In this document: positions 839-31,622 of the stretch, piece after piece
Position numbering within the stretch: position 1 is the stretch's first letter
Layout of the letters: the number at the start of each line of letters is the position of its first letter
From: Georgenia yuyongxinii
GTDB lineage: Bacteria; Actinomycetota; Actinomycetes; Actinomycetales; Actinomycetaceae
NCBI RefSeq assembly: GCF_006352065.1
Contig: NZ_CP040915.1
Span: forward strand, 2,480,001-2,544,000
Direction of reading: 5' to 3'
DNA: 64,000 nt
Translations under genes and position numbers: made by a program
Notes under the pieces: model-generated
The model's input: only the letters and a program-made list of their open reading frames with translations
Database searches by the model: none
What the model was told of the DNA's origin: nothing

Positions 839-848
839 TTTGATCACA
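839..848 (-). promoter_or_regulatory. Island operator (TTTGATCACA) upstream of the binding-protein gene
   Basis: TTTGATCACA matches 9 of 10 positions of the TGTGATCACA palindrome found at the other island promoters. It lies about 90 bp upstream of the ATG at 751. On the minus strand a TTGAAA (853-858) could be the -35 and CAGTAT (829-834) a weak -10 with 18-bp spacing. Unlike most other sites it is not directly abutted to the -35 box. Confidence 0.55.
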
Positions 849-940
849 GATATTTCAAGGAGTCTTGGTAAAGATCTTGTTACGGTCCTGCGTTCGGAGC
901 GCCGGTCACCGTGCTGCGTGCGCGGGGGCGCGCCCGCCAC

Positions 941-1008
941 CGACCGAGGGTCTTTGGGCCGAGCGAGCGTGGCCAACCATGCTCGCTCGGCCCCACGACC
1001 CTCGGTCG
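941..1008 (-). terminator. Composite hairpin terminator downstream of the ten-gene operon
   Basis: A 12-bp outer stem (CGACCGAGGGTC at 941-952 with 997-1008) encloses a second 12-bp stem (957-968 with 981-992) and a 12-nt loop. It begins 28 bp after the stop of the last operon gene, which is where a transcription terminator would sit. There is no T tract, as is common in actinobacteria. Its outer stem shares the CCGAGGGTC string with the hairpin at 23406-23466. Confidence 0.65.
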
Positions 1009-1035
1009 ACGCAGACGCCCCGGAGGGGATCGTCC

Positions 1036-2628
1036 CTACGAGGCCGGGACCGGCACCGAAGCCGCGGCGCCGACGATGCTGCGGTACTTCTCGACGACGG
1101 CGTCGGGGTCGCCGGCCGGGAGGATCGCCGCGATGTGGGCGTCCGGGCGCAGCAGGACCACCACGTCCTCCCCCACGCCGAGCCGGCGGCGCAGCCGCTC
1201 CGAGGGGTCGAAGAGGGCCCGGTCGCGTAGCCCGGAGTCGTGCGGGGCGTCCCAGCGGCTGACCACGTAGTGCCGCAGGCCCGGCCGCGTCGGGCCGGGG
1301 ATGTTCGGCTGCCGGCGGGCGTCGGTGAAGTGGAGCGCGACGAACGAGTTCGCGCACAGGTCGTGCACGTACGTCTGGCCGTCGGGCCCGAAGACCGGCA
1401 GGTCGGGTGCGCGGTCCCCCGCCGTGACGGGCAGCGGCACGTCGCCGGACTTGACCATCGACCACTCGCCGTCGCCGTCCACGTCGAGCTTCACGCCGAG
1501 CAGGGCGCGGGTGAACGCGTTGCCCCAGTTGCCCTCACCCATGGCGGGTGCGCCCTCGGCCCGGCGGCCCATGTTCGCGCGCGCCGCCTCGGCGAGAGCC
1601 CCGGAGCCCTTGATGGCCACGGGAGCCTGCTCCTGCTCGTAGCCGGCGAGCACCGACTCGTCGGCCCAGCCCCGGAAGAGCCAGGCCAGCCGCCAGGGCA
1701 GGTTCGAGGCGTCGAGGATGCCGGTGTTGAGCCCGAGCGCCCACATCGGGGTGATGAGGTGCGCGGCGTCGCCCATGAGGAAGACCCGGCCCACGTTCCA
1801 CGTCTCGGCCACGCGGTGGTGGACGCTGTAGATGTTCGTGCCCAGGATCTCCATCGAGTCCGTCTCGCCGATGAAGCGGGCCACCTTCTCGGCGAACTCC
1901 TCCCGGGTCGGTTCCGGGCGGCCGGGGCCGAGGGGGAAGAGGAAGCGCCAGCAGTGCGGCTGGCGCACGAGCACCATCCACTCCTGCGGGTCGCCGAAGT
2001 ACGCCAGGTAGGGGTAGTCGCGCGGGTTGGCCAGGTCGAGGTCCACCTTGAGGTCGACGAGGCTGTACCGGTCCTCGAGCGTCTTGCCCTCCACGGTGAT
2101 GCCGAGCAGGCGGCGGACGGTCGAGTGCCCGCCGTCGCAGGCCAGGACGTAGCCGGCCTCCTGGATCACCTCACCCGCGGGCCCGTCGAGGGTGAGCTCG
2201 ACCCGGTCGCCGTGGTCGGTGAAGGTCCGCAGGCGGTGGCCCATGCGCAGGGCCCCGGGGGCCTTGCGCTCCAGGGCGTCGCGCAGCAGCGGCTCGAGCT
2301 CGTGCTGGGGGATGTTGATGACGAACGGGTATCGGGTGTCCTCGGTGAGGTCGCCGGTGCGCACGGACAGCGTGGAGGTGTTCGTCGCGCGGTCCAGCTC
2401 GCCGATCTCGTCCACCCGCACAGCGGCGCGCAGCACGTCGTCGAGAGCCCCGTAGCGGTGCAGCACCTCCAGGGTGCGGGTGAGGATCGTGCCCGCCTTG
2501 GTGTCCAGCGACAGGCGGTCGTCCTCCTCGTAGACGACGACGGGCACACCGTAGTGCGCAAGTCCGATCGCAGTGACAAGACCGATAGGACCGCCACCGA
2601 TGACGGCGACAGGCAGCTCGCGAACCAT
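1036..2628 (-). CDS. FAD-dependent aromatic hydroxylase (class A flavoprotein monooxygenase, PheA/TfdB/MhpA-like)
   Basis: The 530-residue protein opens with a dinucleotide fold (VIGGGPIGLVTAIGLAHYG, about residues 7-25), has the class A DG motif (LACDGGHSTVRRLLGI, about residue 160) and the GD motif (RVFLMGDAAHLITPMWALG, about residue 285), and ends in the thioredoxin-like C-terminal domain usual for phenol hydroxylase-type enzymes of 520-600 residues. Such enzymes use NAD(P)H and O2 to hydroxylate an aromatic ring in the cytoplasm. The ATG at 2628 overlaps the stop of the upstream SDR (TAATG) and has GGAGGAG ahead of it, so the far longer open frame that extends upstream is not the gene. 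It is the last gene of the operon. The aromatic substrate is unknown. Confidence 0.85.
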   Translation of the reverse strand: MVRELPVAVIGGGPIGLVTAIGLAHYGVPVVVYEEDDRLSLDTKAGTILTRTLEVLHRYGALDDVLRAAVRVDEIGELDRATNTSTLSVRTGDLTEDTRYPFVINIPQHELEPLLRDALERKAPGALRMGHRLRTFTDHGDRVELTLDGPAGEVIQEAGYVLACDGGHSTVRRLLGITVEGKTLEDRYSLVDLKVDLDLANPRDYPYLAYFGDPQEWMVLVRQPHCWRFLFPLGPGRPEPTREEFAEKVARFIGETDSMEILGTNIYSVHHRVAETWNVGRVFLMGDAAHLITPMWALGLNTGILDASNLPWRLAWLFRGWADESVLAGYEQEQAPVAIKGSGALAEAARANMGRRAEGAPAMGEGNWGNAFTRALLGVKLDVDGDGEWSMVKSGDVPLPVTAGDRAPDLPVFGPDGQTYVHDLCANSFVALHFTDARRQPNIPGPTRPGLRHYVVSRWDAPHDSGLRDRALFDPSERLRRRLGVGEDVVVLLRPDAHIAAILPAGDPDAVVEKYRSIVGAAASVPVPAS

Positions 2629-3353
2629 TACTTCTCCTCCTTGCTGAACACCCGGTCGCGGGTGAGGGTCGAACCGGTCATGGTGGCGGCGTCGGACATG
2701 AGGTACATCAGGGGTCCGACGACGTCGGCCGCCACCCCGACGCCGGTGGTGCGCAGCCACTGCTCGTACTCGGGCCCGGGCGGGTTGGCCGCCCGCATCT
2801 GGGGGGTGTCGATGACGCCCGGGAAGACGGTGTTGACGCGCACCCGGTGCTCGGCGACCTCGGCCGCGAGCGACTGCAGGAACGCGACGAGGGCGGCCTT
2901 GCTCGCCGCATAGGCGGACGCCTCGGCGTGGCCCGTCCGGGCCAGCCCGGAGGCGAACGCGACGACCGAGCCGGACCGACGCCGCACCATGTGCGGCACC
3001 ACCGCCTGGCACGCCCACACGACGCCGTCGAGATTGATCGCGAGGGTGCGCCGCCAGGTCTCGGCGTCCATCTCCAGCACAGGCACGCGCGGCTGGACGG
3101 CCGCGCCCGCGACGAGCCCGTCGATCCGGCCGTGCCGGTCCACGATCTGCTCCACCGCGGCGTGGACGGCGTCGCGGTCGGCGACGTCGACGTGCACGTG
3201 CTCCACGCCGTCGGTGCTCGGCCCCTCGGCCACGTCCAGGACGACGGCATGCCCGCCGGCCGTGGCGTACTCCCGAGCGACGGCCGCGCCGATCCCGGAC
3301 GCACCGCCCGTGACCACCAGGACGTGACCGGTGGCGTCAAACGTTGCCCTCAC
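2628..3353 (-). CDS. SDR family oxidoreductase
   Basis: A 241-residue classical short-chain dehydrogenase/reductase with the cofactor motif TGGASGIG (about residues 14-21), a structural Asn in the LAINLDG segment, a catalytic Ser in AFASGL and the YAASK Tyr/Lys pair. The GTG start at 3353 overlaps the stop of the preceding gene by 4 bp (GTGA), and the stop overlaps the start of the next gene, so translation is probably coupled. SDRs interconvert alcohols and carbonyls or dehydrogenate cis-diols with NAD(P). Here it would process a product of the ring-attacking enzymes (inference). The C-terminus, VFSKEEK, supplies the RBS for the next gene. Confidence 0.85.
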   Translation of the reverse strand: MRATFDATGHVLVVTGGASGIGAAVAREYATAGGHAVVLDVAEGPSTDGVEHVHVDVADRDAVHAAVEQIVDRHGRIDGLVAGAAVQPRVPVLEMDAETWRRTLAINLDGVVWACQAVVPHMVRRRSGSVVAFASGLARTGHAEASAYAASKAALVAFLQSLAAEVAEHRVRVNTVFPGVIDTPQMRAANPPGPEYEQWLRTTGVGVAADVVGPLMYLMSDAATMTGSTLTRDRVFSKEEK

Positions 3354-4981
3354 GCGTGCACCTTCTCTTTCTGCTTCTCCCCCGCGCGGCGCGGTGCCGG
3401 GCGGAGCGTTCGTGCCCGGCGGACCAGGCGGTGTGCGGCGCGGTAACCCGAGCCGGCGCCAAGACCCGGCCCGGGGTGGACGGCCGCGCCGATGTGCACG
3501 AGGGCGTCCACGCCGGTTCCGCCGGCGCCTTGCGGGAAGGGGCGCCACCACAGGTTCTGGTCCAGCTCCGCCGAGCCGCCGTAGGGGTCGCCGGCGATGG
3601 CGTTGGGGTTGCGGGCGAGCAGGTCGGCCGGGGTGGTGACCCGCACGTCGCGGACGGCGCCGCGCAGCCCGGGGGCGTGCGCGGCCACGCGGTCCAGCAC
3701 CCGGTCGGCGTAGGCCCGGGCGAGCTCCGGGGTCCAGGCCCCGTCGGGACGGAGCTCCCCCGCCGCGTCGCCGACGGGCGCGAACGGCACCTCCTGGAGC
3801 TGGAGCCAGAGGGCGCCGGTGCCGGCCGGGACGCGGGAGGGGTCGAGCAGGTGCTGGCGGCCGACGACCACGGTGGGACGCTGCGGCAGGAGCCCGGCCA
3901 GCGCCTCGGCGCAGGCGACACCGGTGGACGCCGACCCGTCGCTGACGTGCACGAGCGGGATGTCGGCGAGCCGCTCGTCGGTCCACTCCAGCGGCCGGTC
4001 GAGGGTCACGTGCACATGCATCGCGGCGCGGCCGGGCTGGTACGTGGCGGCCCCCGCGCGCCGGGCCTGAGGTGCCGCGGCCCCGAGGAGGTCGCCGTAG
4101 AGCGCCTGCGGGGACACCGAGGCAAGGACGGCCCGACGGGCGAGGATCCGCTCACCGCCGGCGTCGACGCCGACCGCCCGGCCGCCGCGCACGAGCACGC
4201 GGTCCACGTGCACGCCGGTGCGGACGTCGACGCCGAGCTCGGAGAGCAGGCCCTCGAAGGCGGCGACGAAGTTCCCGGCCCCGCCCTCGACGACGGGCAG
4301 CCCGGCCAGGTGCGTCGTGGCGGCGAAGAGCGGCAGCATGAAGCCGCCCGAGGCGGCGTCCGGCGAGAGGCCGGCGTGCAGGAGCCACGGGACCCAGAGA
4401 TGGTCGACCTCGGGTCCGTGGAAGGTGCGGCCCGCCCAGGACCGGCCCGAGCTGAGCAGGTCCCGGGTCAGGCGCTCGGAGCCGCGCAGCCCCGACCGGC
4501 CGCCGAGGCGCAGCGCCGCCCCGAGGCCGGCCGGGGCGCGCAGGTCGGCACCCATGAGCGCGCCGATACGGTCCGCGCGGCGGCCGAACTCGTCCACCAT
4601 CTGCAGGTAGGCCCGCCGGTCGCCCGGCGACATGACGGCGGCGGTGAGCGCGGGGTCGCGGTGCGCCACGGTGACCCGGCCGCCGTCCGCCACGCTGGCG
4701 GTCACGGCGCCGTCGGTGTTGCGGTAGCGCAGCCCGTGCCGCTCCAGGTCGGGCCCGAGCTCGGCGAAGGCCGGCGAGGTCACGAAGAGCGGGTGCCAGG
4801 AGGAGTAGAGGTCGTCGACGTACCCCGGCGTCGTCGCCTCGGCGGAGGCGATGAAGCCGCCGATCCGCTCGTTGCGGTCCATCAGGACCACGTCCCAGCC
4901 CGCGCGGGCCAGCACGGCGGCGGCGACCATCCCGTTGACGCCGCCTCCGACGACGACGGCGTCCGCCGCGGCCGCGCTCAC
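3350..4981 (-). CDS. Phytoene desaturase-like FAD-dependent oxidoreductase
   Basis: A 543-residue flavoprotein with an N-terminal FAD motif (VVVGGGVNGMVAAAVLARAGWDVVLMDRNERIGG) followed by the substrate-pocket stretch YVDDLYSSWHPLFV. The C-terminus has the FAD-closing pattern VHIGAAVHPGPGLGAGSG typical of the CrtI/PYROXD2-like NAD(P)/FAD oxidoreductases. Length fits that family (500-550). Members desaturate or oxidise diverse substrates. With no carotenoid genes nearby, a carotenoid role is unlikely and an oxidation step in the catabolic route is more plausible (inference). The GTG start at 4981 overlaps the upstream FMN reductase stop by 4 bp, and its own stop overlaps the SDR start. Confidence 0.8.
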   Translation of the reverse strand: MSAAAADAVVVGGGVNGMVAAAVLARAGWDVVLMDRNERIGGFIASAEATTPGYVDDLYSSWHPLFVTSPAFAELGPDLERHGLRYRNTDGAVTASVADGGRVTVAHRDPALTAAVMSPGDRRAYLQMVDEFGRRADRIGALMGADLRAPAGLGAALRLGGRSGLRGSERLTRDLLSSGRSWAGRTFHGPEVDHLWVPWLLHAGLSPDAASGGFMLPLFAATTHLAGLPVVEGGAGNFVAAFEGLLSELGVDVRTGVHVDRVLVRGGRAVGVDAGGERILARRAVLASVSPQALYGDLLGAAAPQARRAGAATYQPGRAAMHVHVTLDRPLEWTDERLADIPLVHVSDGSASTGVACAEALAGLLPQRPTVVVGRQHLLDPSRVPAGTGALWLQLQEVPFAPVGDAAGELRPDGAWTPELARAYADRVLDRVAAHAPGLRGAVRDVRVTTPADLLARNPNAIAGDPYGGSAELDQNLWWRPFPQGAGGTGVDALVHIGAAVHPGPGLGAGSGYRAAHRLVRRARTLRPAPRRAGEKQKEKVHA

Positions 4982-5523
4982 GCGGTCACCTCGGTGGCGA
5001 CCGGGTGTGCTCGCGCCGCCACCCGGGCGGCGACGGCGGGGGCGAGCACGGCCAGGTAGGTGGTGCTCCAGGCCTCGAGGGCGGCGCCGGGGTCGGTGAG
5101 GTCGGCGTCGAGCACGAACACCCCGCGGGTGGGCATGCTCGCGCCGATCTCCACCAGGACCGGGCGCAACGAGGTCTCGACGGCGAGGGCGTGGTGCGGG
5201 GCGCCGGCCACCATGAGCGGCACGGTGGGGATGCCGAGCAGCGCGTCGGCCGCGAAACGGTCCAGGAACGCCTTGAGCAGACCGGTGTAGGTGGCCTTGT
5301 AGGTGGGTGAGGCGACGACGAGGGCGGCGGCGCCGCGTACTGCGTCCACCGCCTCCGCGACGGCGGCCGAGGCCGGGTCGAAGAGCTCCCCGGCGAGCTC
5401 GGCCAGCTCGATCACGCGCACCTCGCCGTCGCCGGCCACCCGCCGGCCCAGGGCGCGCGCCACAGCGGCGGTACGCGATCCGGGCCGGGGGTTGCCCACG
5501 ACCACGACGACGTTCCCGTTCAT
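4978..5523 (-). CDS. NADPH-dependent FMN reductase (SsuE/MsuE-like)
   Basis: A 181-residue flavodoxin-fold reductase with the FMN phosphate loop GNPRPGSRTAAVARAL near the N-terminus and the ASPTYKATYTGLLKAFLDR segment diagnostic of the SsuE/MsuE/chromate reductase group. These enzymes make free FMNH2 for two-component monooxygenases. The ATG overlaps the stop of the upstream LLM monooxygenase gene (ATGA at 5520-5523), strongly suggesting that this is the reductase partner of that enzyme. It is the only such reductase in the window, so it may also serve the second LLM enzyme at 15605. Confidence 0.88.
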   Translation of the reverse strand: MNGNVVVVVGNPRPGSRTAAVARALGRRVAGDGEVRVIELAELAGELFDPASAAVAEAVDAVRGAAALVVASPTYKATYTGLLKAFLDRFAADALLGIPTVPLMVAGAPHHALAVETSLRPVLVEIGASMPTRGVFVLDADLTDPGAALEAWSTTYLAVLAPAVAARVAARAHPVATEVTA

Positions 5524-6647
5524 CGGGGCTTCCGCACGCCCTTGCGCTCCAGCCGCGGGAGCACCTCCTGGGCGAAGTACTCGAGCTCGGAGACGTAGTC
5601 GACGAAGGCCAGCGTCAGGCCGGAGAAGCCGGCCCGGTAGTAGCGCTCGAGCTCGTCGGCCACGTCGTCCGGCGTGCCGTACAGCGGGACGGACCCGTGC
5701 CCGGCGGCGAAGCGCGACCGGTAGGTGGCGAGCATCTCGGGGGTGAAGGACTTGGCGTGGAGGTTCTGCAGGCGCATGAGGTTGTCGACGGCGGACCAGT
5801 CGGCGTTCTCCTCCGCGTAGTAGTGGAGAAACTCCTCGGCCTCCTTGCGGGTGGGGCGGCACACCACGTGGCTGGGCGTGAGCACACCGAACTCGCGGCC
5901 GTAGGCCTCCTGCGCGTGGCTGGAGAGCTTCTCCACGATGCCCGCACCGTCCTCGGGACCGAAGACGTTGGTGAAGACGTAGTCGGCGTTGCGGGCGCCG
6001 AACTCGCGCCCCTGGCCCGAGGATCCGGCGTTGAGGATCGGCATCCGGCCGCCGAACGGCTTGGGGTTGCCGTAGATGTGCTTGCCGTTGAAGAAGCGGC
6101 CGTCGTGGTCGAACGGCGCGTCCTCGCTCCAGATGCGCTGGATGAGGTCGAACCACTCCTGGGCTCGGGCGTAGCGGTCGTCGTGCTCCTTCGGCAGGTC
6201 GACACCGAAGATCTCGTACTCCGGCTGGTTCCAGCCGGCGACGACGTTGAGCCCGGCACGGCCGTGGCTGAGCTGGTCGATGGTGGCGAGCTGCTTGGCG
6301 ACGACGACCGGGTGGTTGAAGGCGGTGTGCACGGTGGAGAAGATCGTGATGTTTTTCGTCTTCGCCAGCAGCCCGGCCGCCCAGGTCAGAGTCTCCAGGA
6401 CGCCGCCGTGGAAGTTTGTCTCGCCCCCGTACCCGATCCACCGGGCGATGGGCAGCAGGAAGTCGATGCCGACCTCGTCGGCGAGGATCGCCATCCGCTC
6501 GTTGTCGTCCCAGCTCGCGGACCAGCGCTCCTCGATCTTCGTGACGGCGAAGCCGCCGGAGCAGTTCGCGCTGAAGAGCCCTAGCTTCAGGCCGGTGTCG
6601 GCCAGCATCGGGCGGACCTGCTGCTGGGTGTCGAGGGTCTGGGTCAT
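5520..6647 (-). CDS. LLM-class flavin-dependent monooxygenase, RutA/SfnG-like (copy 1)
   Basis: A 375-residue luciferase-like monooxygenase. The pattern GLFSANCSGGFAVTKIEERW, then RWIGYGGETNFHGG, NVVAGWNQPEYEIFGV and NAGSSGQGREFGARNADYVFTN, resembles the branch containing pyrimidine oxygenase RutA, dimethylsulfone monooxygenase SfnG and DszA, enzymes that cleave C-N or C-S bonds with reduced FMN and O2. The ATG at 6647 is preferred over GTG 6650 because AAGGAG lies 6 nt before the ATG. The cognate FMN reductase overlaps its stop. A 60-bp gap precedes it, the only real break within the operon. A closely similar paralog lies at 15605-16738. The likely job is oxidative ring opening or desulfonation; the choice between them cannot be made from the sequence. 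Confidence 0.87.
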   Translation of the reverse strand: MTQTLDTQQQVRPMLADTGLKLGLFSANCSGGFAVTKIEERWSASWDDNERMAILADEVGIDFLLPIARWIGYGGETNFHGGVLETLTWAAGLLAKTKNITIFSTVHTAFNHPVVVAKQLATIDQLSHGRAGLNVVAGWNQPEYEIFGVDLPKEHDDRYARAQEWFDLIQRIWSEDAPFDHDGRFFNGKHIYGNPKPFGGRMPILNAGSSGQGREFGARNADYVFTNVFGPEDGAGIVEKLSSHAQEAYGREFGVLTPSHVVCRPTRKEAEEFLHYYAEENADWSAVDNLMRLQNLHAKSFTPEMLATYRSRFAAGHGSVPLYGTPDDVADELERYYRAGFSGLTLAFVDYVSELEYFAQEVLPRLERKGVRKPR

Positions 6648-6710
6648 CACGGTCTCCTTGCGGTTGAGCAGGCGGTAGGGCGCTGAGGGCGGTCGGGGCG
6701 GGTCCGGCAG

Positions 6711-7673
6711 TCAGGCGGTCTGGGTGGCGAGGCGGCCGAGGGCGGCGGCCGCGTTGTCGACGGCGGCCAGGCGCTGGGCGTCGCCGCCACGGTGGGCGAG
6801 CAGGGCGAGCGGGTCGGTCGAACCCATGGGGAACGGCCAGTCGCTGCCCAGCAGCAGCCGGTCGGAGCCGAAGACCTCGGCTGCGAGGTCCACGACGGCG
6901 GGGTCGTGGGCGAGGGTGTCCACGTAGAGGCGGCGGACGGCCTCGCGTGGCGGCAGCTCCAGCCGGGCGACGCCGGGCCGGTCGGTGTCGTAGCCGTGCT
7001 GCCAGCGCCCCACGACGGCCGGCACCACGCCGCCGCAGTGCGACAGGATCACCCGCACGCGCGGGTAGGTGCTCAGCACGCCGCCGAAGACGAGCTCCGC
7101 GGTGGCCACGCCGGTCTCGGCCGGGTTGCCGAGGAGGTTGGCCAGGTAGTACCGGGTCAGGCGGACGTCCGGGGCGGCGCCGGGGTGCAGCAGCAGGGTG
7201 CGGCCGTCCTCGTCGAGCATGCGCCACAACGGGGCGAGGGCCGCGTCGTCGAGCGCGTGCGATCGCCCCCCGGCGGACGCGACCACACCCGCCCAGCGGA
7301 CGTCGTCGCGCACGGCGGCGTACGTCGCGGCGGCGACGTCGGGGTGCTCGAGCGGCAGGTAGGCCAGGGGCAGCAGCCGGGTGTGCCCGGCCACCGCCCG
7401 CAGCATCCCGTCGTTGAGCGCGTGCCCCCAGACTGCCGCCTGCTCCGCCGGAAGATGCTGCCGGAAGAACGGCGGCGGCGCGGACACGACGGCGGAGTCC
7501 AGACCGGCGTCGTCGAGGTAGGTCTCGAGGTCGCCGGGCTCGTAGAGCCCCGCTGGCCCGACGGTGTGCCCGTCCACGGCAAGCCGTCCGCCGTCGGCGG
7601 CCACACCCGCCACCACGGCCTCGAGGACCGGGGCGAGATGGGTGTGGACGTCGACGGAGCCCAGCAGGCTCAC
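6711..7673 (-). CDS. Amidohydrolase-2 family metal-dependent hydrolase or decarboxylase
   Basis: A 320-residue TIM-barrel protein with the metal ligands expected for the PF04909 (ACMSD/LigW-like) family: DVHTHL at residues 8-13, LLLHPG near 180, ILSHCGG near 225 and the terminal Asp in LLGSDWPFPMG near 285. Members hydrolyse amides or decarboxylate aromatic and muconate-type acids in the cytoplasm. The GTG start at 7673 overlaps the CoxG stop (GTGA). Next to a ring-oxygenating LLM system, hydrolysis of a ring-opened formamide or amide, or decarboxylation of an intermediate, would be fitting (inference). Confidence 0.82.
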   Translation of the reverse strand: MSLLGSVDVHTHLAPVLEAVVAGVAADGGRLAVDGHTVGPAGLYEPGDLETYLDDAGLDSAVVSAPPPFFRQHLPAEQAAVWGHALNDGMLRAVAGHTRLLPLAYLPLEHPDVAAATYAAVRDDVRWAGVVASAGGRSHALDDAALAPLWRMLDEDGRTLLLHPGAAPDVRLTRYYLANLLGNPAETGVATAELVFGGVLSTYPRVRVILSHCGGVVPAVVGRWQHGYDTDRPGVARLELPPREAVRRLYVDTLAHDPAVVDLAAEVFGSDRLLLGSDWPFPMGSTDPLALLAHRGGDAQRLAAVDNAAAALGRLATQTA

Positions 7674-8113
7674 GCGGGGACGGGCGCCGTCGCGGCCGCC
7701 CGTGCGGTCGCGCGCAGCACCTCGTCGATGACGCGGTGGGCGATCTCGCCGGCCACCCGCTGCCCGACGCTCGCCGCCGGGCCGGCCACCAGCACGTCCG
7801 CCTGCCAGGCGACGCGTGCGCCGTCGCCGGTGGGCTCGAAGGTCAGCTGGATGTCCGCGGTGACGGCGTTGTTGCCGCGCTGGGCGACCACCCCCACCAC
7901 GGCGGAGGTGTCGGTGACCTCGCCGGCGGTGATGGTGGTGTCGAACCGGATCGGGCCGAGCGCGATGACCGGGTGGAAGCCCGCCTTGATCGCGCCGTCG
8001 CCGGCCTCGACGTCGGTGAACGTCGGGACGGCGGCGAGCACCTCGGGCGAGGTGGCCAGGCGTCGCAGGGCGGCCGGGGTGGCCGGGGTGTCGAACGTGC
8101 CGTCGAGCCTCAT
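7670..8113 (-). CDS. CoxG-like SRPBCC family protein
   Basis: A 147-residue START/SRPBCC-fold protein (MRLDGTFDTPATPAALRRLATSPEVLAAVPTF...), matching the CoxG subfamily found next to molybdenum hydroxylases. CoxG proteins are implicated in assembling or membrane-anchoring the Cox enzyme. The C-terminal amphipathic Ala-rich tail seen here is shorter than in membrane-anchoring forms. It overlaps the stop of the large subunit gene (ATGA at 8110-8113) and the start of the amidohydrolase gene. Confidence 0.75.
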   Translation of the reverse strand: MRLDGTFDTPATPAALRRLATSPEVLAAVPTFTDVEAGDGAIKAGFHPVIALGPIRFDTTITAGEVTDTSAVVGVVAQRGNNAVTADIQLTFEPTGDGARVAWQADVLVAGPAASVGQRVAGEIAHRVIDEVLRATARAAATAPVPA

Positions 8114-12036: not shown

Positions 12037-12065
12037 ACCTTCCCGTATTTGTGATCACATGTCAA
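12037..12065 (-). promoter_or_regulatory. Promoter and operator of the ten-gene Mo-hydroxylase operon
   Basis: On the minus strand a perfect TTGACA (rc of 12060-12065) is directly followed by the perfect palindrome TGTGATCACA (12050-12059). A 17-bp spacer would place the -10 at 12037-12042 (GAAGGT), which is weak. The palindrome occupies the spacer, so a bound repressor would exclude RNA polymerase. Confidence 0.7.
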
Positions 12066-12208: not shown

Positions 12209-12218
12209 CGTGATCACA
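12209..12218 (+). promoter_or_regulatory. Island operator (CGTGATCACA) upstream of the first GntR gene
   Basis: CGTGATCACA, one mismatch from the island palindrome, lies 77 bp before the ATG at 12295, with TAAACT (12227-12232) as a possible -10 downstream. This suggests autoregulation of the GntR gene. No strong -35 is seen. Confidence 0.55.
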
Positions 12219-13052: not shown

Positions 13053-13068
13053 TTGACATGTGATCACA
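13053..13068 (+). promoter_or_regulatory. Promoter -35 and operator of the second GntR gene
   Basis: TTGACA at 13053-13058 is directly followed by the perfect palindrome TGTGATCACA at 13059-13068, extended by one matching base on each side. This is the same -35/operator fusion seen at four or five other island promoters. The -10 is not obvious. Confidence 0.7.
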
Positions 13069-13182
13069 TTCTCCGCAGTCTTTGTGCTCCAGCCGCCCGG
13101 CGCGGACAGGGGGCGACGTCGCTCCTGCGCACCGATTTGTCCTGATTTTGCGGGCGGGCAACCAGCGACCGTGGGGAAACCC

Positions 13183-15275: not shown

Positions 15276-15330
15276 GGCCTGTGGACCCTTCCCGTGACGT
15301 TCTTCCCGTGACGTTCACAGGCCCGTCGAA

Positions 15331-17837: not shown

Positions 17838-17925
17838 GCGCTGCACCTCCCGCCTGAGTGACCGCCCCGTCGCTCGACCTGATCGTTGATCGTACGTCCG
17901 AAACATGCACTTCTGAGCGGAAATC

Positions 17926-22233: not shown

Positions 22234-22262
22234 TTGACATATGAGCACACCCCCCCTATGTT
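22234..22262 (+). promoter_or_regulatory. Complete promoter with embedded operator before the RidA-like gene
   Basis: TTGACA (22234-22239), a 17-bp spacer and TATGTT (22257-22262). The spacer starts TATGAGCACA, a variant of the island palindrome. This is the clearest sigma-70-type promoter in the window. The rest of 21812-22233 is less GC-rich than its surroundings and contains no gene that I can support. Confidence 0.75.
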
Positions 22263-24457: not shown

Positions 24458-24474
24458 TTGACATTTGATCACAT
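24458..24474 (+). promoter_or_regulatory. Promoter -35 and operator of the sulfatase gene
   Basis: TTGACA (24458-24463) is directly followed by TTTGATCACA (24464-24473), one mismatch from the island palindrome. It lies about 95 bp before the ATG. The -10 is not obvious. This is the usual island layout. Confidence 0.7.
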
Positions 24475-24565
24475 ACCGGCGAGTCTCGGGTGAAACCTCG
24501 CCGTGCACTGGTGTCTGGAGTAGGCGCCGTGCCGCCACGGTGACAGACGAAGAAGGATTGTGCCA

Positions 24566-26233
24566 ATGGCATCCGACGATCGCATGCCCGGGGGCCGGCG
24601 CCCCAACTTCATCATCATGTGTATGGACCAGTGGGACGCGCACATGGAGCTGCCGGCGAATCTCCGGCTGCCTGCGATGGAACGGATGGAGGAACGCGGG
24701 GTCACCTTCGAGAAGCAGTACTGCACGGTGCCGATGTGCACGGCCTCGCGTGCAGCGATGTGGACCGGCGTCCATGCCAAGAACACGGGCCTGTGGGACA
24801 ACCTCAACTTCTCCTGGATCCACGAGCTCTCGCCGGACGTCCCCACCATCGGGCACATGCTGCGCGAGCAGGGCTACTACACCGCGTTCAAGGGCAAGTG
24901 GCACCTCTCCGACGTGCCGATGTCCGAGGACGCGCTCGAACGGTACGGCTTCGCCGACTTCCAGGCCTGGGGCGAGATGTTCGGTACACCGCTCCAGGGC
25001 GCGATGCTCGACGGCACCGTCGCCTTCGAGACGGTCGACTGGTTGCGGCACCGGGCTCCCAAGGACCAGCCGTGGTTCCTGATCTCCTCGATGGTCAACC
25101 CGCACGACGTGATGTACATGCGCACCGAGCCGTTCATCCCCCCACGGGAGAACGGCACGATGAAGCGCGCGGTCCATCTCCCCCAGACCCTCGGGATCTT
25201 CGAGGAGTGGGACGTCACGTACCCACCGAACTTCGACGACGACCTCTCCGGCCAGCCGCCCGGGGTCACCTCCTACCGCAACAACATCGAGTGGAACTAC
25301 GGCGCAGTCCCCGACGACCGGCCCGACCTGTGGCTCCAGCGCCGCAACTACCTCCTGAACTGCCTGCGACTCGTCGACCAGGAGTTCGGCAAGGTTCTCG
25401 ACGAGATCGAGCGGCAGGGCCTGTGGGACAACACGGTCGTCATCCTCACCTCCGACCACGGGGAGATGAACGGCGCCCACCGCCTCGCACAGAAGGGCGG
25501 CATCCACTACGAGGAGGCCGCCGTCGTGAACATGTCCGTCGCCGTGCCGGGTGGGCCGGCAGGCACCCGGACTCGCGCGGTCGGTTCCCACCTGGACCTC
25601 GCCCCCACCGTCCTGGAACTCGCGGGCCTGAGCCAGGAGGACATTGCCCGCCGCTACCCACAGCTCCGCGGTCGCAGCCTGGCGGAGGTGCTCCACGACC
25701 CGGACGTCCCCGGCCCGCGGGGTTCGATCGATGAACCCGGTGCCGGCGCCCTGCTGTGCTGGGACGGGCTCTTCATGCTCGATGCCGAGTGGTCCGTCAG
25801 CGGCGCACTGCGCTCCATGGTCGACCTGCCGCACGACCGCCGGGACGCCTCGCTCCTCGAGGCCGGCGAGAAGTACGGCGCCCCCGACTTCTCGCTGCGG
25901 ACGTTCTACCGCGCGGTGGTGGACGGGCGGTACAAGCTGGTGCGCTGGTTCAGCCCCGAGGACTACGAGACGCCACGCGACGTCGACGACCTGCTCAGCC
26001 GGTCGGACCTCAGCCTCCACGACCTCTGGAAGGATCCTGGCGAGCTGGTCAACCTGGCCGACCCGACTCGGGTGGAATTCGACCGCGGCCTGGTCGCGAC
26101 CCTCCTGGACAAGCTCAACGCGCTCATCGACTGGGAGCTCGGTGACGACTCCTGCCCGTTCGACCTCGACATGTTCGGCACGCGTGAGCTCGTCTACACC
26201 CGCACGTCGGAAGCGGCGACGCGCACCTCTTGA
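24566..26233 (+). CDS. Cys-type sulfatase (sulfatase-like hydrolase)
   Basis: A 555-residue alkaline-phosphatase-superfamily hydrolase. The N-terminal metal-binding segment is NFIIMCMDQWD, the active-site motif is MCTASRAAMWTG (C-x-A-x-R, about residues 62-66, where the Cys becomes formylglycine), GKWHL is at about residue 110, and TSDHGEMNGAHR near residue 300 carries the second metal pair. ATG 24566 is chosen over GTG 24560 because AAGGA lies 8 nt before the ATG. No signal peptide is visible, so it should act in the cytoplasm on an imported sulfate ester (or phosphonate/phosphate analog). An FGE that could mature it is encoded at 30057-31010. The promoter contains the island operator. Confidence 0.88.
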   Translation: MASDDRMPGGRRPNFIIMCMDQWDAHMELPANLRLPAMERMEERGVTFEKQYCTVPMCTASRAAMWTGVHAKNTGLWDNLNFSWIHELSPDVPTIGHMLREQGYYTAFKGKWHLSDVPMSEDALERYGFADFQAWGEMFGTPLQGAMLDGTVAFETVDWLRHRAPKDQPWFLISSMVNPHDVMYMRTEPFIPPRENGTMKRAVHLPQTLGIFEEWDVTYPPNFDDDLSGQPPGVTSYRNNIEWNYGAVPDDRPDLWLQRRNYLLNCLRLVDQEFGKVLDEIERQGLWDNTVVILTSDHGEMNGAHRLAQKGGIHYEEAAVVNMSVAVPGGPAGTRTRAVGSHLDLAPTVLELAGLSQEDIARRYPQLRGRSLAEVLHDPDVPGPRGSIDEPGAGALLCWDGLFMLDAEWSVSGALRSMVDLPHDRRDASLLEAGEKYGAPDFSLRTFYRAVVDGRYKLVRWFSPEDYETPRDVDDLLSRSDLSLHDLWKDPGELVNLADPTRVEFDRGLVATLLDKLNALIDWELGDDSCPFDLDMFGTRELVYTRTSEAATRTS

Positions 26234-26247
26234 GCCGGCTCGACTCG

Positions 26248-26302: not shown

Positions 26303-27127
26303 TCAGCGCGCGGCGATCTCCGTGATGAGGGAGTAGATGTGCGAGCGCAGCTGGGCGAACCGGGGGTCGCCCTTGGTGCTCACCTGGTGCCTCGGTTTGG
26401 CCAACGGCACCGCGATCTCCTCGGCTATCTCCGTGGGCGACTTGGTCAGCACGAAGACGCGGTCGGCGAGGTAGACCGCCTCGTCGATGTCGTGGGTGAC
26501 GATGAGCGCCGTCATGTTGAGCTCCCGGACGATCGTCAGGACAAGGTCCTCCAGCTCGGCGCGCACGATGGCGTCGAGCGAGGCGAACGGCTCGTCCATG
26601 ATCAAGATGTCCGGCTCGTACGCCAGGGCCCGTGCGATGGCCACCCGCTGCTGCATCCCGCCGGAGAGCTGCCACGGGTACTTCCGGTCGACGTGGCTCA
26701 GGCCCACGGCGGCGAGCGCCTCGTCGGCCTTGGCGTGCACCGTGGCCCGGTCCTTGTGCTTCTTGCGGATGGGCAGCTCGACGTTGCTGCGCACCGAGCG
26801 CCACGGCAGCAGGGAGCGCGAGTAGTCCTGGAAGACGACCGCCATCGCCTCGGGCGGTCCCTTGACCTTCTGACCCTCGAAGAGCACGGCGCCCTTGGTG
26901 GCCGGAAGGAGCCCGACGATGCAGTTGAGCAGCGTGGTCTTGCCGGCCCCCGAGGGGCCGACGATGGCGATCATCTCTCCGGCGCGGACGTCGAAGCTCA
27001 CCGAGCGGATGGCCTCGACGGCGTCACGCCCGCTCCCGTACGTCTTTCCTACCTCGGTGAGCTCGAGGACGGACCGGTCGGCATGCTGCGCGGCCGGTGC
27101 GGTGTCGGTCATGGTCTGCTTAGTCAT
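26303..27127 (-). CDS. ABC transporter ATP-binding protein, nitrate/sulfonate/taurine type
   Basis: A 274-residue ATPase with Walker A GPSGAGKTTLL, the Q-loop in VFQDYSRSLLPWRSV, signature LSGGMQQRVAIARAL, Walker B ILIMDEPFASLD and the H-loop VTHDIDEAVYLAD. The closest pattern is the SsuB/TauB/NrtD group. It is last in a four-gene operon; its ATG at 27127 lies inside the end of the upstream permease gene (8-bp overlap). It powers import of the ligand bound by the lipoprotein at 28747. Confidence 0.9.
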   Translation of the reverse strand: MTKQTMTDTAPAAQHADRSVLELTEVGKTYGSGRDAVEAIRSVSFDVRAGEMIAIVGPSGAGKTTLLNCIVGLLPATKGAVLFEGQKVKGPPEAMAVVFQDYSRSLLPWRSVRSNVELPIRKKHKDRATVHAKADEALAAVGLSHVDRKYPWQLSGGMQQRVAIARALAYEPDILIMDEPFASLDAIVRAELEDLVLTIVRELNMTALIVTHDIDEAVYLADRVFVLTKSPTEIAEEIAVPLAKPRHQVSTKGDPRFAQLRSHIYSLITEIAAR

Positions 27128-27884
27128 TGCTTTCCCCTCGCCACATGAGGACCTTGTCCTGCACGAGCACGAATCCGAGGTTCACCACGTAACCGACGAT
27201 GGCGAGCAGGATGATCCCGCCCCACATCTCGGGGATGGCGAACGTCTGCTGGGCCTGGAGCACGTAGTAGCCGATGCCGTTGGTGGCGGCCACCATCTCG
27301 CTCGAGACCATCACGATGAGGCCGATGGCCAGCGCGGTGCGCATCCCGGCGAAGATCTGCGGTCCGGCGGCGGGCAGGATGACGAAAACCAGCCGCTCGA
27401 CGGCGTTGAACCGGTACACCCGAGCCATCGCCTCCAGCTGGGGCTCCACCCCTCGCACCCCCTCGATGGTGTTGAAGAGGATCGGGAAGACCGCCCCCAG
27501 CGTGATCAGCCCGATCTTCATCGCGTCGCCCGGGCCCACGAGGATGAGGGCCCCCGGGATCAGCGCCACGGGCGGCAACGCCTGGAAGAAGACGATCAGC
27601 CAGCTCGGCATGCGCTGCACGAGGCCAGGGCCCCGGCCGATGACGGTGCCCAGCCCGATGCCGACCGCGCACGCCAGCAGATACCCGACGCTGAAGCGGA
27701 CCAGACTGGGGAACGCGTGCTGCAGGAACGTCGGTCCGGTCCACGTCTCCACGAACCGGTCGAGGATGTCGGGCAGCGCGGGGAAGTACAGCGACGGCCG
27801 TGCCGTGCTGAGCACCCACCACAGCGCCACGAGCCCCGCGAGCAGCCACGTGCGGGCCAGGAGTGCCTTGATGGTCGTGCTCAT
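27120..27884 (-). CDS. ABC transporter permease, nitrate/sulfonate/taurine type
   Basis: A 254-residue inner-membrane permease with about six TM segments and the BPD_transp_1 EAA loop (ARVYRFNAVERLVFVILPAAGPQIFAGMRTAL). ATG 27884 overlaps the stop of the first permease gene (ATGA). Family members such as SsuC, TauC and NrtB are of this size. It would form a heterodimeric channel with the product of the neighbouring permease gene. Confidence 0.88.
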   Translation of the reverse strand: MSTTIKALLARTWLLAGLVALWWVLSTARPSLYFPALPDILDRFVETWTGPTFLQHAFPSLVRFSVGYLLACAVGIGLGTVIGRGPGLVQRMPSWLIVFFQALPPVALIPGALILVGPGDAMKIGLITLGAVFPILFNTIEGVRGVEPQLEAMARVYRFNAVERLVFVILPAAGPQIFAGMRTALAIGLIVMVSSEMVAATNGIGYYVLQAQQTFAIPEMWGGIILLAIVGYVVNLGFVLVQDKVLMWRGESND

Positions 27885-28741
27885 GCGGCCTCGCGCCTCC
27901 TCGACGGGTGCCACTGCAGTGTCGGGGCCTCCAGCATGTGGAAGATCCGGTTGACGAGGACGCCGACCAACCCGGTCGCGACCACGAGCGCATACATCTC
28001 GGCCACGGCACCACCGGACTGAAGCTCGGTGATCCGGGCGCCGAGTCCCGGGGACCCCGTCACGATCCCGCCGGTGACGGCGAGGATCAGCGCCGCCGCC
28101 GCACTCAGGCGCAGCCCGGTGGCGACGAAGGGGGTGGCCGCCGGCAGCACGACGTTGAGGATCCGCTCACGACGGTTGAGCCCGTAGACACGCGCGGTGC
28201 GCAGCATGACGGGATCGACGGAACGCACGCCGTACGTGGTCTGGAGGTAGATGGGCCAGAAGGCGCCGATGAAGGCCAGCAGCGTGGCAAGGGCGACGCC
28301 GCTGCCGAGCAGCAGCACCGCCAGCGGGATGACGGCCACCGGCGGGATCGGCCGTAGCACCTCGGCCGTCATCGACGTGGCCGTGTAGGCGGCACTGCTC
28401 AGGGCCACCAGGACGGCGAGCGGGACCGCGATCACGACTGCGAGCAGGAGTCCGACGCCCCACGCCGTCATGGTGTTGCCGACGGCGGTCCAGAACACCG
28501 TGTCGACGAGCTGGGTGCCGAGATGTCCCAACACCGCCGGCATCGAGGGCACACCCGCACGGACAGGCTCACTCACCGCCCGGACGACCTCGACCAGCGC
28601 CAGGAAGAGCACGATCCCGACCAGGGGCTGAGCTCCCCGGACGCCGGCGAACCGGCCCGAGCCGATTCGCCGGCGCGAGGGGCGGCCCCTGCCGGGCGGC
28701 GACATGGTCGCCGCCTCGGCAGTGGTCACGTTGGAGGTCAA
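27881..28741 (-). CDS. ABC transporter permease, nitrate/sulfonate/taurine type
   Basis: Up to 286 residues. It has about six TM segments after a basic N-terminus and an EAA loop (ARVYGLNRRERILNVVLPAATPFVATGLRLS). The start is TTG 28741 or, more likely on RBS grounds, the ATG at 28705, which has GAGG 8 nt upstream. Together with the next gene it forms the channel; both permeases share the SVDP/GVRGVEP-type loop preceding the EAA motif. It begins a few bases after the binding-protein stop. Confidence 0.85.
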   Translation of the reverse strand: MTSNVTTAEAATMSPPGRGRPSRRRIGSGRFAGVRGAQPLVGIVLFLALVEVVRAVSEPVRAGVPSMPAVLGHLGTQLVDTVFWTAVGNTMTAWGVGLLLAVVIAVPLAVLVALSSAAYTATSMTAEVLRPIPPVAVIPLAVLLLGSGVALATLLAFIGAFWPIYLQTTYGVRSVDPVMLRTARVYGLNRRERILNVVLPAATPFVATGLRLSAAAALILAVTGGIVTGSPGLGARITELQSGGAVAEMYALVVATGLVGVLVNRIFHMLEAPTLQWHPSRRREAA

Positions 28742-28746
28742 GAGCC

Positions 28747-29766
28747 TCAGCGCTCCCAGAGCACGGCGTCGACGTCGGGACGGGCCTCGACGAAGCCCTG
28801 GGCCACCATCGCGTCGGCGAGCGCGTCCAGGGTCTCGCGCTTGAGGTTCGTCGAGTAGGTGGGCAGCCGCATCCCGGCGAGGGCCTCCTCCGGGATCTCG
28901 GTGTAGGTGGCGATGGCCTCACGGACCGCGTCGGCGTTGGCGTTCGCGAACTCCGACGCCTCGCCGACCGCATCACAGAAGCCCGCCACGGCGTCGGGGT
29001 TCTCCTCGACGTAGTCACGGGTGGCCATGTAGGCAGATGCGGTGCCGTCCTCGCCGTACGGCGCCTGGATCGAGGCGACGATCTCCATCCCGGACTCCAG
29101 CGCGGGGGTGAGGAACGGCTCGGTGACGACGGCGGCGTCGACCTGGCCCCGCTCGACCGCACCCACCATGTCGGCCGGGTTGAGCGCGGTGAAGGTCACC
29201 GCCGCGGGGTCGCCGCCCATGTTCTCGATCTCGACCCTGGTGGTAAGCTCGTTCGCCGCCTTCAGGGCGTTGACGGCGATGGTCGTCCCGCTGAAGTCGG
29301 CGCCTGAGTCAAGACCGGACCCGCCCTTGGCGACGAGTGCGACGAGCTGCTCGTCGGGGTTGAGCGACTCGGCGTTCGACCCGCACACCAGGACGAGGGG
29401 GACGTCCTTGGTCTGGGCGTTCAGGACGACGACGGGCGAGGTGTAGGCGATGTGGCCGGCTCCGCTCATGAGCTCGGCCACCGCCGCGGCACCGTTCTGG
29501 ACGAACGTGGTCTCGACCTCGACGGAGCGCTCCTGGAAGAGCCCCTGGTCCTGGGCGAGATAGATCGGCGCGGCGTCGGCGACCGGCATGATCATCACGT
29601 TGAGAGCGGTCACGGGAGCGGCACCAGCCGCGGACTCTGTCTCAGCGGCGGACCCTGTCTCGACGGTGGTGCCATTGCCTGCGGCACCGCCCTCGGCAGC
29701 GTTACAGGCAGCCAGGGAAAGGGTTGCGGCGACAGCGACCGCAACAACGGCGAACGGCTTCTTCAT
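28747..29766 (-). CDS. ABC transporter substrate-binding lipoprotein, SsuA/TauA/NMT1-like
   Basis: A 339-residue lipoprotein starting MKKPFAVVAVAVA with the lipobox SLAAC near residue 21, then an Ala/Glu/Gly linker. The mature part (VADAAPIYLAQDQGLFQERSVEVETTFVQNGAAAVAELMSGAGHIAYTS) is typical of NMT1/THI5-like/SsuA proteins, which bind sulfonates, nitrate, pyrimidine precursors or aromatic acids. It is the first gene of the importer operon, with GGGAG before the ATG. The palindrome-bearing promoter upstream and the sulfatase on the other side suggest uptake of a sulfonated or sulfate-ester compound, though the ligand cannot be read from the sequence. Confidence 0.87.
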   Translation of the reverse strand: MKKPFAVVAVAVAATLSLAACNAAEGGAAGNGTTVETGSAAETESAAGAAPVTALNVMIMPVADAAPIYLAQDQGLFQERSVEVETTFVQNGAAAVAELMSGAGHIAYTSPVVVLNAQTKDVPLVLVCGSNAESLNPDEQLVALVAKGGSGLDSGADFSGTTIAVNALKAANELTTRVEIENMGGDPAAVTFTALNPADMVGAVERGQVDAAVVTEPFLTPALESGMEIVASIQAPYGEDGTASAYMATRDYVEENPDAVAGFCDAVGEASEFANANADAVREAIATYTEIPEEALAGMRLPTYSTNLKRETLDALADAMVAQGFVEARPDVDAVLWER

Positions 29767-29842
29767 GGAGGACTCCCAGCTATCAGCGGCACGCAGCGGC
29801 GGTGCTGCGGCGTCGGCGGGTGGATCGCCGCCGAGCATTCCG

Positions 29843-29863
29843 TGACATGTGATCACATGTCAA
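29843..29863 (-). promoter_or_regulatory. Promoter -35 and 20-bp perfect palindrome before the ABC importer operon
   Basis: TGACATGTGATCACATGTCA (29843-29862) is a perfect 20-bp palindrome, the longest of the island operators. On the minus strand it overlaps TTGACA (rc of 29858-29863) in the same -35/operator layout as elsewhere. It is about 80 bp upstream of the binding-protein start. Confidence 0.78.
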
Positions 29864-30056: not shown

Positions 30057-31010
30057 CTACGACGTGACGGTGCGGAAGCCGAGGTTGCCGGTGGCCGTGT
30101 CCGGCGTGTTGGAGCTCCGGGCGGCGACGCGATATCGATAGCAGTAGGAGTCGTGGCAGAGGTAGGACCCTCCGCGCATGACCCGCACCGACCCCGCGGC
30201 CGGGCCGCGCGGATCCTGTCCCGGTGAGTGGGTGTAGTAGCGAGGGGAGAACCAGTCGGCGCACCACTCCCACGCGTTTCCCACCATGTCGTGCAGCCCG
30301 TAGCCGTTCGCCCCGAACGTGCCCACCGGATTCGTCGTGAGGAATCCGTCCTCGAGCGTGTTCCGGCCCGGAAACTCGCCCTGCCAGATGTTGCATCGGT
30401 GCGTGCCCGCCTCGTCAAGCAGCTCGTCACCCCACGGAAAGCGCCCACCCTCCAGGCCACCGCGAGCGGCGTACTCCCACTCCGCCTCCGTGGGCAGGCG
30501 CCGCCCGGCCCACCTGCAGTATGCGGCGGCGTCGTTCCAGGACACCTGGACCACCGGGTGGTCCGGCACGTCCTCCCAGGACGAGAGAAGGCCCGCGGGC
30601 CGCGCCCACGTGGCGCCCCGCACGACCAGCCACCAGGGAGTGCCGGTCGCCCGCCCGAGGATGTCGCTCTCGAGCGCGCGCACGGCGGAGTGGAAGACGG
30701 CGGACCAGCCGAACTTCTCGGAGTCGGTGACGTAGCCGGTGGCCTCGACGAAGCGGGCGAAACCGGCGTTCGTCACGTGGTGGACGTCGATCGAGAAGGG
30801 CCGGAGGACGACGTCGTGGACAGGGGTCTCCCCGTCCTGCTGGTAGCCCTCGCCGTGGTGGTCACCCATGGCGAACCTGCCGCCCGGGAGCCCGCGCTCG
30901 GCCCGGGGACCACCAGGGGCTGCCGACCGCACGCCCATGATGGCGTCAACGGCGACGACGTCCCCATCAGGTGCACCGGCACCACGTCCCGGTCCACAGC
31001 AGCTCGCCAT
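30057..31010 (-). CDS. Formylglycine-generating enzyme (sulfatase-modifying factor)
   Basis: A 317-residue aerobic FGE. The core shows ERGLPGGRFAMGD, VTNAGFARFVEATGYVTDSE, VSWNDAAAYCRWAGRRLPTEAEWEYAARGG, YGLHDMVGNAWEWCADW and, decisively, GSYLCHDSYCYRYRVAARS near the C-terminus, which contains the copper-binding Cys pair of true FGEs (C-x4-C). FGE oxidises the Cys in C-x-P/A-x-R of sulfatases to formylglycine in the cytoplasm. The obvious client here is the CTASR sulfatase at 24566. GGGAGGA precedes the ATG. The first 35 residues, before the domain, are not conserved-looking. Confidence 0.92.
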   Translation of the reverse strand: MASCCGPGRGAGAPDGDVVAVDAIMGVRSAAPGGPRAERGLPGGRFAMGDHHGEGYQQDGETPVHDVVLRPFSIDVHHVTNAGFARFVEATGYVTDSEKFGWSAVFHSAVRALESDILGRATGTPWWLVVRGATWARPAGLLSSWEDVPDHPVVQVSWNDAAAYCRWAGRRLPTEAEWEYAARGGLEGGRFPWGDELLDEAGTHRCNIWQGEFPGRNTLEDGFLTTNPVGTFGANGYGLHDMVGNAWEWCADWFSPRYYTHSPGQDPRGPAAGSVRVMRGGSYLCHDSYCYRYRVAARSSNTPDTATGNLGFRTVTS

Positions 31011-31157
31011 GCGTCCTCCCAGCCCGTCCGGTCACAGCTTCGCGAGCCGGCGCGGGGCAAGTATGGCTTCGGCCGCCGCGAAAACACCAAACGTCTCGGT
31101 GCACGTGGCACTCGGCAAGAGGCGTACGAGGCGAAGCAGGACAGGTATACGCAGCAC

Positions 31158-31556
31158 TCAGAACAGGTGAGCGGTCACCTCGATCTCGATGAGCAGCCCG
31201 TCGACGGCGAGACCGGTCACCCCGAGGATCGTCTGCGCGGGGTGCTCGGCGCTGCCCTGGACCTCCTCGATCGCGCGGGTGATCGTCTCGTACTCCGTCG
31301 GCTGCAACGTGTAGATCGTCCGTCGCATGACGTCGCCCCAGGATGCGCCCACGGCCTCGAGGGCGATCTCGACGTTCCGCATCGCAGCCCGGGTCTGCTC
31401 GGCGAGGTCGCCAGGACCGATGAGTCCGAAGTCGGGACCGAGCGCGGTCTGGCCGGCGATGTAGGCGACCCGGCCGGCTGGTGCAACCGAGACATGGCTG
31501 AATCCCGGGGCCGGATGCAGCCCCACGGGGTTGAGAAGCTCGCGGACCGTCGGCAT
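31158..31556 (-). CDS. RidA/YjgF/RutC family protein lacking the catalytic Arg (copy 2)
   Basis: A 132-residue close paralog of the protein at 22299: LLNPVGLHPAPGFSHVSVAPAGRVAYIAGQTAL, MRRTIYTLQPTEYETITRAIEEVQGS and HPAQTILGVTGLAVDGLLIEIE. The Arg of enamine deaminases is again Gln (PAQT). The ATG at 31556 has GGAGG 9 nt upstream; the long open frame that extends far beyond it is not coding. A weak copy of the island operator lies at 31611. It precedes the FGE gene by 147 bp on the same strand and may be co-transcribed. Confidence 0.88.
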   Translation of the reverse strand: MPTVRELLNPVGLHPAPGFSHVSVAPAGRVAYIAGQTALGPDFGLIGPGDLAEQTRAAMRNVEIALEAVGASWGDVMRRTIYTLQPTEYETITRAIEEVQGSAEHPAQTILGVTGLAVDGLLIEIEVTAHLF

Positions 31557-31610
31557 TGACCATCGCCTCCAAGTGGGGTGCCCGCTTCTGCGGGTCTGCT
31601 GGCGGGTCCC

Positions 31611-31622
31611 ATCTGAGCACAT
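31611..31622 (-). promoter_or_regulatory. Weak island-type operator before RidA copy 2
   Basis: ATCTGAGCACAT matches ATGTGATCACAT at 10 of 12 positions and lies 55 bp before the ATG of the RidA gene. No good -35 abuts it, so this is only a possible member of the operator set. Confidence 0.35.

Follow-up and report, generated by a model that had tools for sequence, protein, structure and literature searches.

Which protein reads the short palindrome that recurs at the promoters of a catabolic gene island in Georgenia yuyongxinii? The question is raised by a stretch of 64 000 nucleotides (assembly GCF_006352065.1, contig NZ_CP040915.1, positions 2 480 001 to 2 544 000, hereafter the window), in which an earlier note had proposed that a palindrome marks the promoters of genes repressed by two GntR-family regulators with an FCD domain. 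We find that TGTGATCACA, with the core TGATCA, probably serves as the operator in a local catabolic regulon run by two adjacent FCD-type GntR paralogs, an attribution made on sequence evidence. We regard the regulon as real and its interpretation as supported in the main.

Occurrence of the palindrome

Exact TGTGATCACA was found at only four places in the genome (4 171 640 bases), all inside 17.8 kb of the island (window coordinates 12050, 13059, 15343 and 29848). The earlier note had recognized all four, with the third at 15344 instead of 15343. The reversed control pattern occurs at one place in the whole genome, and 100 shuffles of the window gave a mean exact count of 0.00. In the 48-kb stretch around these sites we observed four copies versus 0.0185 expected. 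Of the 1024 palindromic 10-mers, 21 occur in that stretch two or more times, and TGTGATCACA has the highest ratio of observed to expected copies among them. A related pattern, TTGACANNTGATCANA, has eight exact places in the genome, seven of them in a 45-kb island (genome positions 2465157 to 2509863) and the eighth at 3254695, with a reversed control of zero. At up to three mismatches TTGACATGTGATCACAT gave 12 genome matches, which correspond to 11 places because one palindrome was read on both strands (control: 0 forward, 1 reverse). The limits of the island were drawn after the matches were known, and a binomial figure (8/9), which counted both strands of one palindrome, is not relied upon. 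That the motif might be equally common elsewhere, as the earlier note had asked, is thus not the case: 4 of 4 exact copies of TGTGATCACA and 7 of 8 of TTGACANNTGATCANA lie in the island.

When up to two mismatches are allowed, the window contains 12 matches to the bare 10-mer against an expectation of 12.73, so there is no enrichment at that level. As this count is at chance level, a near copy was accepted only with further evidence. Near copies at 839, 12209, 22240 and 24464 are upheld by their context, while two others on the earlier list were rejected, both having two mismatches and no TTGACA: 20642 (GATGATCACA; formerly given as 20643) and 31612 (TCTGAGCACA; formerly 31611). The statement that no such site lies to the right of 31622 is true at up to one mismatch, with one two-mismatch match at 38063. 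We also rejected a match at 172692 (three mismatches to the composite of TTGACA and palindrome), which belongs to another inverted repeat, located before a gene for an ArsR-type helix-turn-helix (HTH) and AHSA1 protein. Four 1-mismatch 10-mers in locus L007 (5313, 6473, 8391 and 14858 in its own coordinates) have no TTGACA and were not counted. Rfam and tRNA scans of the window gave no match. Another palindrome, ATGTCATGACAT, is scattered over eight genome places (1241353, 1957861, 2558799, 2700276, 2947483, 2957419, 3090734 and 3987020).

Promoter architecture

The sites accepted within the window are as follows (window coordinates).

839..848, minus strand: operator TTTGATCACA (minus strand TGTGATCAAA), preceding a branched-chain-type ATP-binding cassette (ABC) importer, which extends beyond the left end of the window
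12043..12065, minus strand: TTGACA (12065-12060) and TGTGATCACA (12059-12050), promoter of the molybdenum (Mo) hydroxylase operon, 17-base spacer, -10 GAAGGT
12209..12218, plus strand: operator CGTGATCACA, without TTGACA, upstream of gntR1
13053..13081, plus strand: TTGACA-TGTGATCACA promoter/operator of gntR2, -10 CAGTCT
15330..15358, minus strand: TTGACA-TGTGATCACA promoter/operator of the MFS carrier, -10 AAGAAT
22234..22262, plus strand: TTGACA-TATGAGCACA promoter/operator of RidA (site 22240), -10 TATGTT at 17 bases
24458..24486, plus strand: TTGACA-TTTGATCACA promoter/operator of the sulfatase (site 24464), -10 GAGTCT at 17 bases
29834..29863, minus strand: TTGACA-TGTGATCACA promoter/operator of an SsuA-like importer, -10 AATGCT at 18 bases

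TTGACA indeed adjoins the palindrome in the six cases that had been claimed (12050, 13059, 15343, 22240, 24464 and 29848); at 29848, TGACA stands on both sides of it. The further claim, that the -35 element and the operator form one unit with the operator in the spacer, is borne out by the position of the -10 element. All nine TTGACA-type sites tabulated for this genome have an xAnnnT hexamer at 17 or 18 bases from TTGACA. We determined the distances from TTGACA to hexamers with A at position 2 and T at position 6 in 19 promoters (9 own and 10 of relatives): such a hexamer stands at 17 bases in 14 promoters and at 18 in four, one or both distances being occupied in 17 of 19, while the other 15 spacings tried gave three matches altogether. 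The gntR2 promoters of two relatives (G094 and L022) are without the T of the -10 element. Given this clustering at 17-18 bases, TTGACA is very probably a genuine -35 element with the operator inside the spacer. The layout is that of a repressible sigma-70-type promoter, with -35 and -10 elements at 16-18 bases around the operator, and the operator is in the position expected for a repressor.

Extent of the regulon

In total we count 12 promoters: eight in the window, two to the left of it and two remote. From the earlier list of about ten sites, eight stand as credible promoter sites and precede the units that had been named (importers, Mo hydroxylase operon, MFS carrier, gntR genes, RidA and sulfatase), but the regulon is larger, with four promoters outside the window. 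Downstream of the two sites to the left, which lie 13-15 kb away (2465156 and 2467003 in genome coordinates), are genes for an NMT1-type binding protein and for a MobA-like/XdhC pair; moaA is divergent. The remote sites (3254694 and 811322) carry TTGACACGTGATCAC and are CACGTGATCAC-type sites with TAnnnT at 17 bases in each. Each lies a few hundred bases before a gene for an NMT1-type binding protein, and those two proteins are 63% identical; about 370-460 bases separate promoter and annotated frame (L007:7240-8694 and L090:3323-3783).

Two sites have promoters less clear than those of the TTGACA type. At 839, TTGAAA is 4 bases farther upstream, CAGTAT follows it at 18 bases, and counterparts are present in L021, L022 and G022. 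For the site at 12209, all three other named Georgenia loci (L020, L021 and L022) have a corresponding site ahead of gntR1. As G022 is the genome of L020 and G094 that of L021, these genomes do not add evidence beside those loci.

The two FCD-type GntR paralogs

12295..12993, plus strand: gntR1, FCD-type GntR regulator of 232 amino acids (Pfam FCD PF07729, 2.2e-28; GntR PF00392, 1.5e-16)
13183..13866, plus strand: gntR2, FCD-type GntR paralog of 227 amino acids from GTG 13183, a provisional start (Pfam FCD 2.4e-26 on the longer frame 13060-13866; GntR PF00392, 7.8e-16)

That two FCD-type paralogs sit inside the set of targets holds: both proteins have the N-terminal GntR winged HTH and the C-terminal all-helical FCD domain according to Pfam, both genes are preceded by the operator, and the products are 60% identical. 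A structure model of gntR1 (mean pLDDT 85.4) has its best fold matches among GntR regulators with FCD domains. Three histidines, H150, H192 and H214, are invariant in 16 of 16 sequences of the clade and in 25 of 25 wider ones.

We also observed two further FCD-GntR genes in this genome, L007:1336-1923 (genome position 3247338) and L088:9795-10388 (3282789), ~35 kb apart. Their products are 97% alike over 191 amino acids, are 41-42% identical to gntR1 and have the same S-A-M-P recognition helix; one of the genes and the remote operator at 3254694 are separated by 7 kb.

Conservation of the site with GntR homologs

From the genus Georgenia seven members were drawn, own genome included, with a homolog threshold of E 1e-30. 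Three members with close gntR1 orthologs (own genome included) have the composite at up to one mismatch, and three without a gntR1 homolog at this threshold have no composite. In the remaining member, whose only homolog is 60% identical, TTGACATCTGATCAAAT (two mismatches) lies ~3 kb from that homolog and before an importer. The sole gntR homolog of one same-genus genome, G119:C3:845746-846432, has one TGA reported within its frame. In G094 the site is retained at the orthologous promoters of MoaA/XdhC, importer, Mo hydroxylase, gntR1, gntR2 and MFS/RidA. Of 62 loci compared more widely, with up to three mismatches allowed, 28 have a homolog at 49% identity or above and 34 a weaker one; a composite-like site is present in 26 of the former and 1 of the latter.

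The footprint GTGATCA[GC]ATATCAAA is invariant in all 22 Kribbella-type loci (by title, 21 Kribbella and one Streptomyces), while the sequence around it has diverged. Its position is immediately upstream of an alcohol dehydrogenase (ADH) gene, which is followed by a gntR homolog. A search of six whole Kribbella-type genomes for TGATCANATATCAAA at one mismatch gave 13 places. Twelve of these are pairs made of the ADH-gntR site and a second site, TGATCAAACATCAAA, present ~9 kb from the first in six of six genomes; the other is a stray. The second site (within TTTGATCAAA) stands just before an NMT1-type importer gene, which 15 of the 22 loci reach. In Microtetraspora, Nonomuraea and Actinomadura we observed TTGACATTTGATATnAGAT before the first gene of a syntenic catabolic operon, at one place per genome at up to two mismatches; as its centre is two bases longer, it is only a looser parallel. 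The co-occurrence in other Georgenia and the invariant Kribbella-type footprint near gntR homologs (22/22) support the attribution of the palindrome to the FCD-GntR paralogs.

Besides the lack of enrichment of the bare 10-mer at two mismatches, several observations weigh against this attribution. The Georgenia and Kribbella loci share ancestry and so do not count as independent draws. Three genomes of the family from other genera (G018, G029 and G058) have one 1-mismatch composite each and no matching GntR. The Nonomuraea and Actinomadura loci are without the composite at up to three mismatches; in its place they have TTGACATTTGATATGAGAT, a sequence that does not form a TGATCA palindrome. The remote sites may answer to the two further GntR paralogs (41-42% identical) and not be targets of gntR1 and gntR2. 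Finally, the operator falls outside the spacing described for the FadR subfamily, as discussed below.

Alternative explanations

Another regulator encoded in the island, such as an AraC/XylS-type protein, could be the one that reads the palindrome, with the GntR proteins being passengers. Two genes of this type are present in the island (16866-17906, minus strand; 20522-21811, plus strand), and the product of one is close to AndR, the anthranilate dioxygenase regulator. Still, the Kribbella loci retain the footprint beside gntR homologs, and both Georgenia gntR genes themselves have the site. The layout argues in the same direction, since AraC-type sites usually are direct repeats upstream of the -35 element. 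We consider this explanation unlikely; the AraC/XylS-type pair is likely to provide a second layer of control.

Slightly less likely still is that the GntR proteins bind but activate, or that one paralog represses while the other competes or activates. Such a duality has a precedent in GntR1 and GntR2 of Corynebacterium glutamicum, which repress other genes but act as activators of ptsG, where their site has its centre at -60 (PMC2230225). Here the operator is inside the -35/-10 spacer, a position favouring repression.

Sites of CRP/GlxR or of another global regulator are scarcely credible: TGTGA and TCACA are CRP half-sites, but a CRP/GlxR-type site reads TGTGA-N6-TCACA, whereas the half-sites here are fused, with zero bases between them instead of six, and exact copies do not occur elsewhere in the genome, which largely refutes this explanation, one that the earlier note had itself put forward for checking.

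Operator spacing and recognition helix

In operators of the FadR subfamily, the GT and AC pairs of the TKGT/ACMA boxes are reported to be separated by 3 or 2 nt, and the protein contacts G through the Arg at position 38 of its HTH (Suvorova 2015; PMC4494728). The site described here departs from that consensus, TGT-GATC-ACA having a GT-AC distance of 4 nt. The proteins depart as well: at position 38 (FadR Arg45), located by its distance to the conserved Arg at 42 (FadR Arg49) and not by superposition, the clade has A, S, P or Q, next to an invariant Met at position 39, while homologs of 34 other loci have Arg, with Lys in one. Helix and operator appear to have changed together, as suggested by the correlation over related sequences. 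Tentatively, and at a little under an even chance, we propose that the clade (Georgenia, Kribbella, Microtetraspora, Nonomuraea and Actinomadura) has an undescribed way of reading DNA, in which Arg is replaced beside the invariant Met, the core is TGATCA with GT and AC 4 nt apart (5'-ATnTGATCAnAT), the operator is welded to the -35 element, and promoter and operator spread as a cassette. This would point to an FCD-GntR branch whose DNA code departs from published contact rules.

Genes of the island

The genes below, together with the regulators, make up the part of the island inside the window.

1036..7673, minus strand: FAD aromatic hydroxylase, amine-oxidase-like flavoprotein, luciferase-like monooxygenase and ACMSD-like amidohydrolase; an operator of their own was not found
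8110..11971, minus strand: Mo hydroxylase genes (Pfam)
11105-11971, minus strand: FAD subunit of Mo hydroxylase (Pfam; start at 11971 read by eye)
10554-11108, minus strand: 2Fe-2S subunit of Mo hydroxylase (Pfam)
within frame 8110-10914, minus strand: molybdenum cofactor (MoCo) subunit of Mo hydroxylase (Pfam)
13986..15275, minus strand: MFS carrier of the CynX/NimT type
22299-22700, plus strand: RidA
22833-23279, plus strand: ChrR-type cupin
24560..26233, plus strand: sulfatase (start ATG ~24566)
26303..29856, minus strand: SsuA/TauA-type ABC importer with ATPase, two permeases and binding protein (start ~29764)

Pathway genes encode an ACMSD-like amidohydrolase, a StyA-type monooxygenase fused to a flavin reductase, an aromatic hydroxylase, a sulfatase, SfnG/RutA-like luciferase-type monooxygenases, RidA and FAA-hydrolase. 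The combination of Mo hydroxylase, several kinds of flavin monooxygenase, ACMSD-like amidohydrolase, RidA, FAA-hydrolase, importers and sulfatase points to an aromatic or N-heteroaromatic substrate. We offer catabolism of such a compound, possibly sulfated, as a lead only; the gene content singles out no one substrate.

Proposed mechanism

In most targets TTGACA runs straight into the operator, which occupies the first part of the 17-18 base spacer; a bound GntR dimer and RNA polymerase would then be mutually exclusive at the promoter. Most likely, judging from this arrangement, GntR dimers repress by occupying the spacer beside the -35 element. With the operator at both gntR genes, the circuit would be autoregulated. 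The predicted targets are the Mo hydroxylase operon, Mo-cofactor maturation (MobA-like, XdhC and perhaps the divergent moaA), the MFS carrier, RidA/cupin, the sulfatase, the island's three ABC importers and the binding proteins of two remote importers. The repressors would be released by an intermediate of the pathway, plausibly a carboxylic acid bound in the metal pocket of the FCD domain; a carboxylate effector is plausible because the three invariant histidines resemble the zinc holders of Atu1419 from Agrobacterium fabrum. A distance of 159 bp separates the operators at 12050 and 12209, and a DNA loop between them is possible by analogy with Atu1419, a tetramer that loops two palindromes 190 bp apart (PMC7797058).

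Such a scheme would give the aromatic-catabolic island a defined regulon of ~12 promoters and would place Mo-cofactor maturation under the same signal as several importers and a sulfatase. The conserved element also is a means of finding unlinked pathway genes, having led to the two remote importer proteins.

Comparison with known systems

A literature search with TGTGATCACA, covering few subscription journals, gave one occurrence that is part of a primer and others unrelated by title; a search on Georgenia together with GntR found nothing, most subscription journals being outside its scope. By sequence (83.5 bits) and by fold the best match is PmiR of Pseudomonas aeruginosa (7xp1, 7xp0), which, unlike the proteins described here, controls another regulon.

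Atu1419 is a VanR-type FCD-GntR protein that represses catabolism of hydroxycinnamic (aromatic) acids from 10-bp palindromes, one of them between the -10 and -35 elements of its own gene, and that has three His at its zinc site (PMC7797058). The Georgenia system shares with it the FCD-GntR fold match, a 10-bp palindrome in the promoter spacer and, probably, repression of aromatic catabolism; its three invariant His are candidates for a similar metal site. However, the operator of Atu1419, ATGTATACAT, is GT-N2-AC, whereas ATGTGATCACAT here is GT-N4-AC; its Arg45 reads guanine, while the clade described here is without Arg at the FadR-Arg45 position; and it is one regulator of a few promoters, in contrast to two paralogs and ~12 promoters.

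GntR1 and GntR2 of C. glutamicum are likewise two FCD-GntR paralogs with one target set, acting mainly as repressors of an acid-catabolic pathway (PMC2230225). They are 78% identical and unlinked, whereas the Georgenia paralogs are 60% identical and adjacent, and their operator is close to TNGTNNNACNA, unlike TGTGATCACA. As in FadR-subfamily operators, the palindrome has GT and AC pairs, though with 4 nt between them and TGT/ACA boxes in place of 3 or 2 nt and TKGT/ACMA (PMC4494728). The type of control is thus familiar, while the operator tag and the DNA-reading helix depart from the described pattern.

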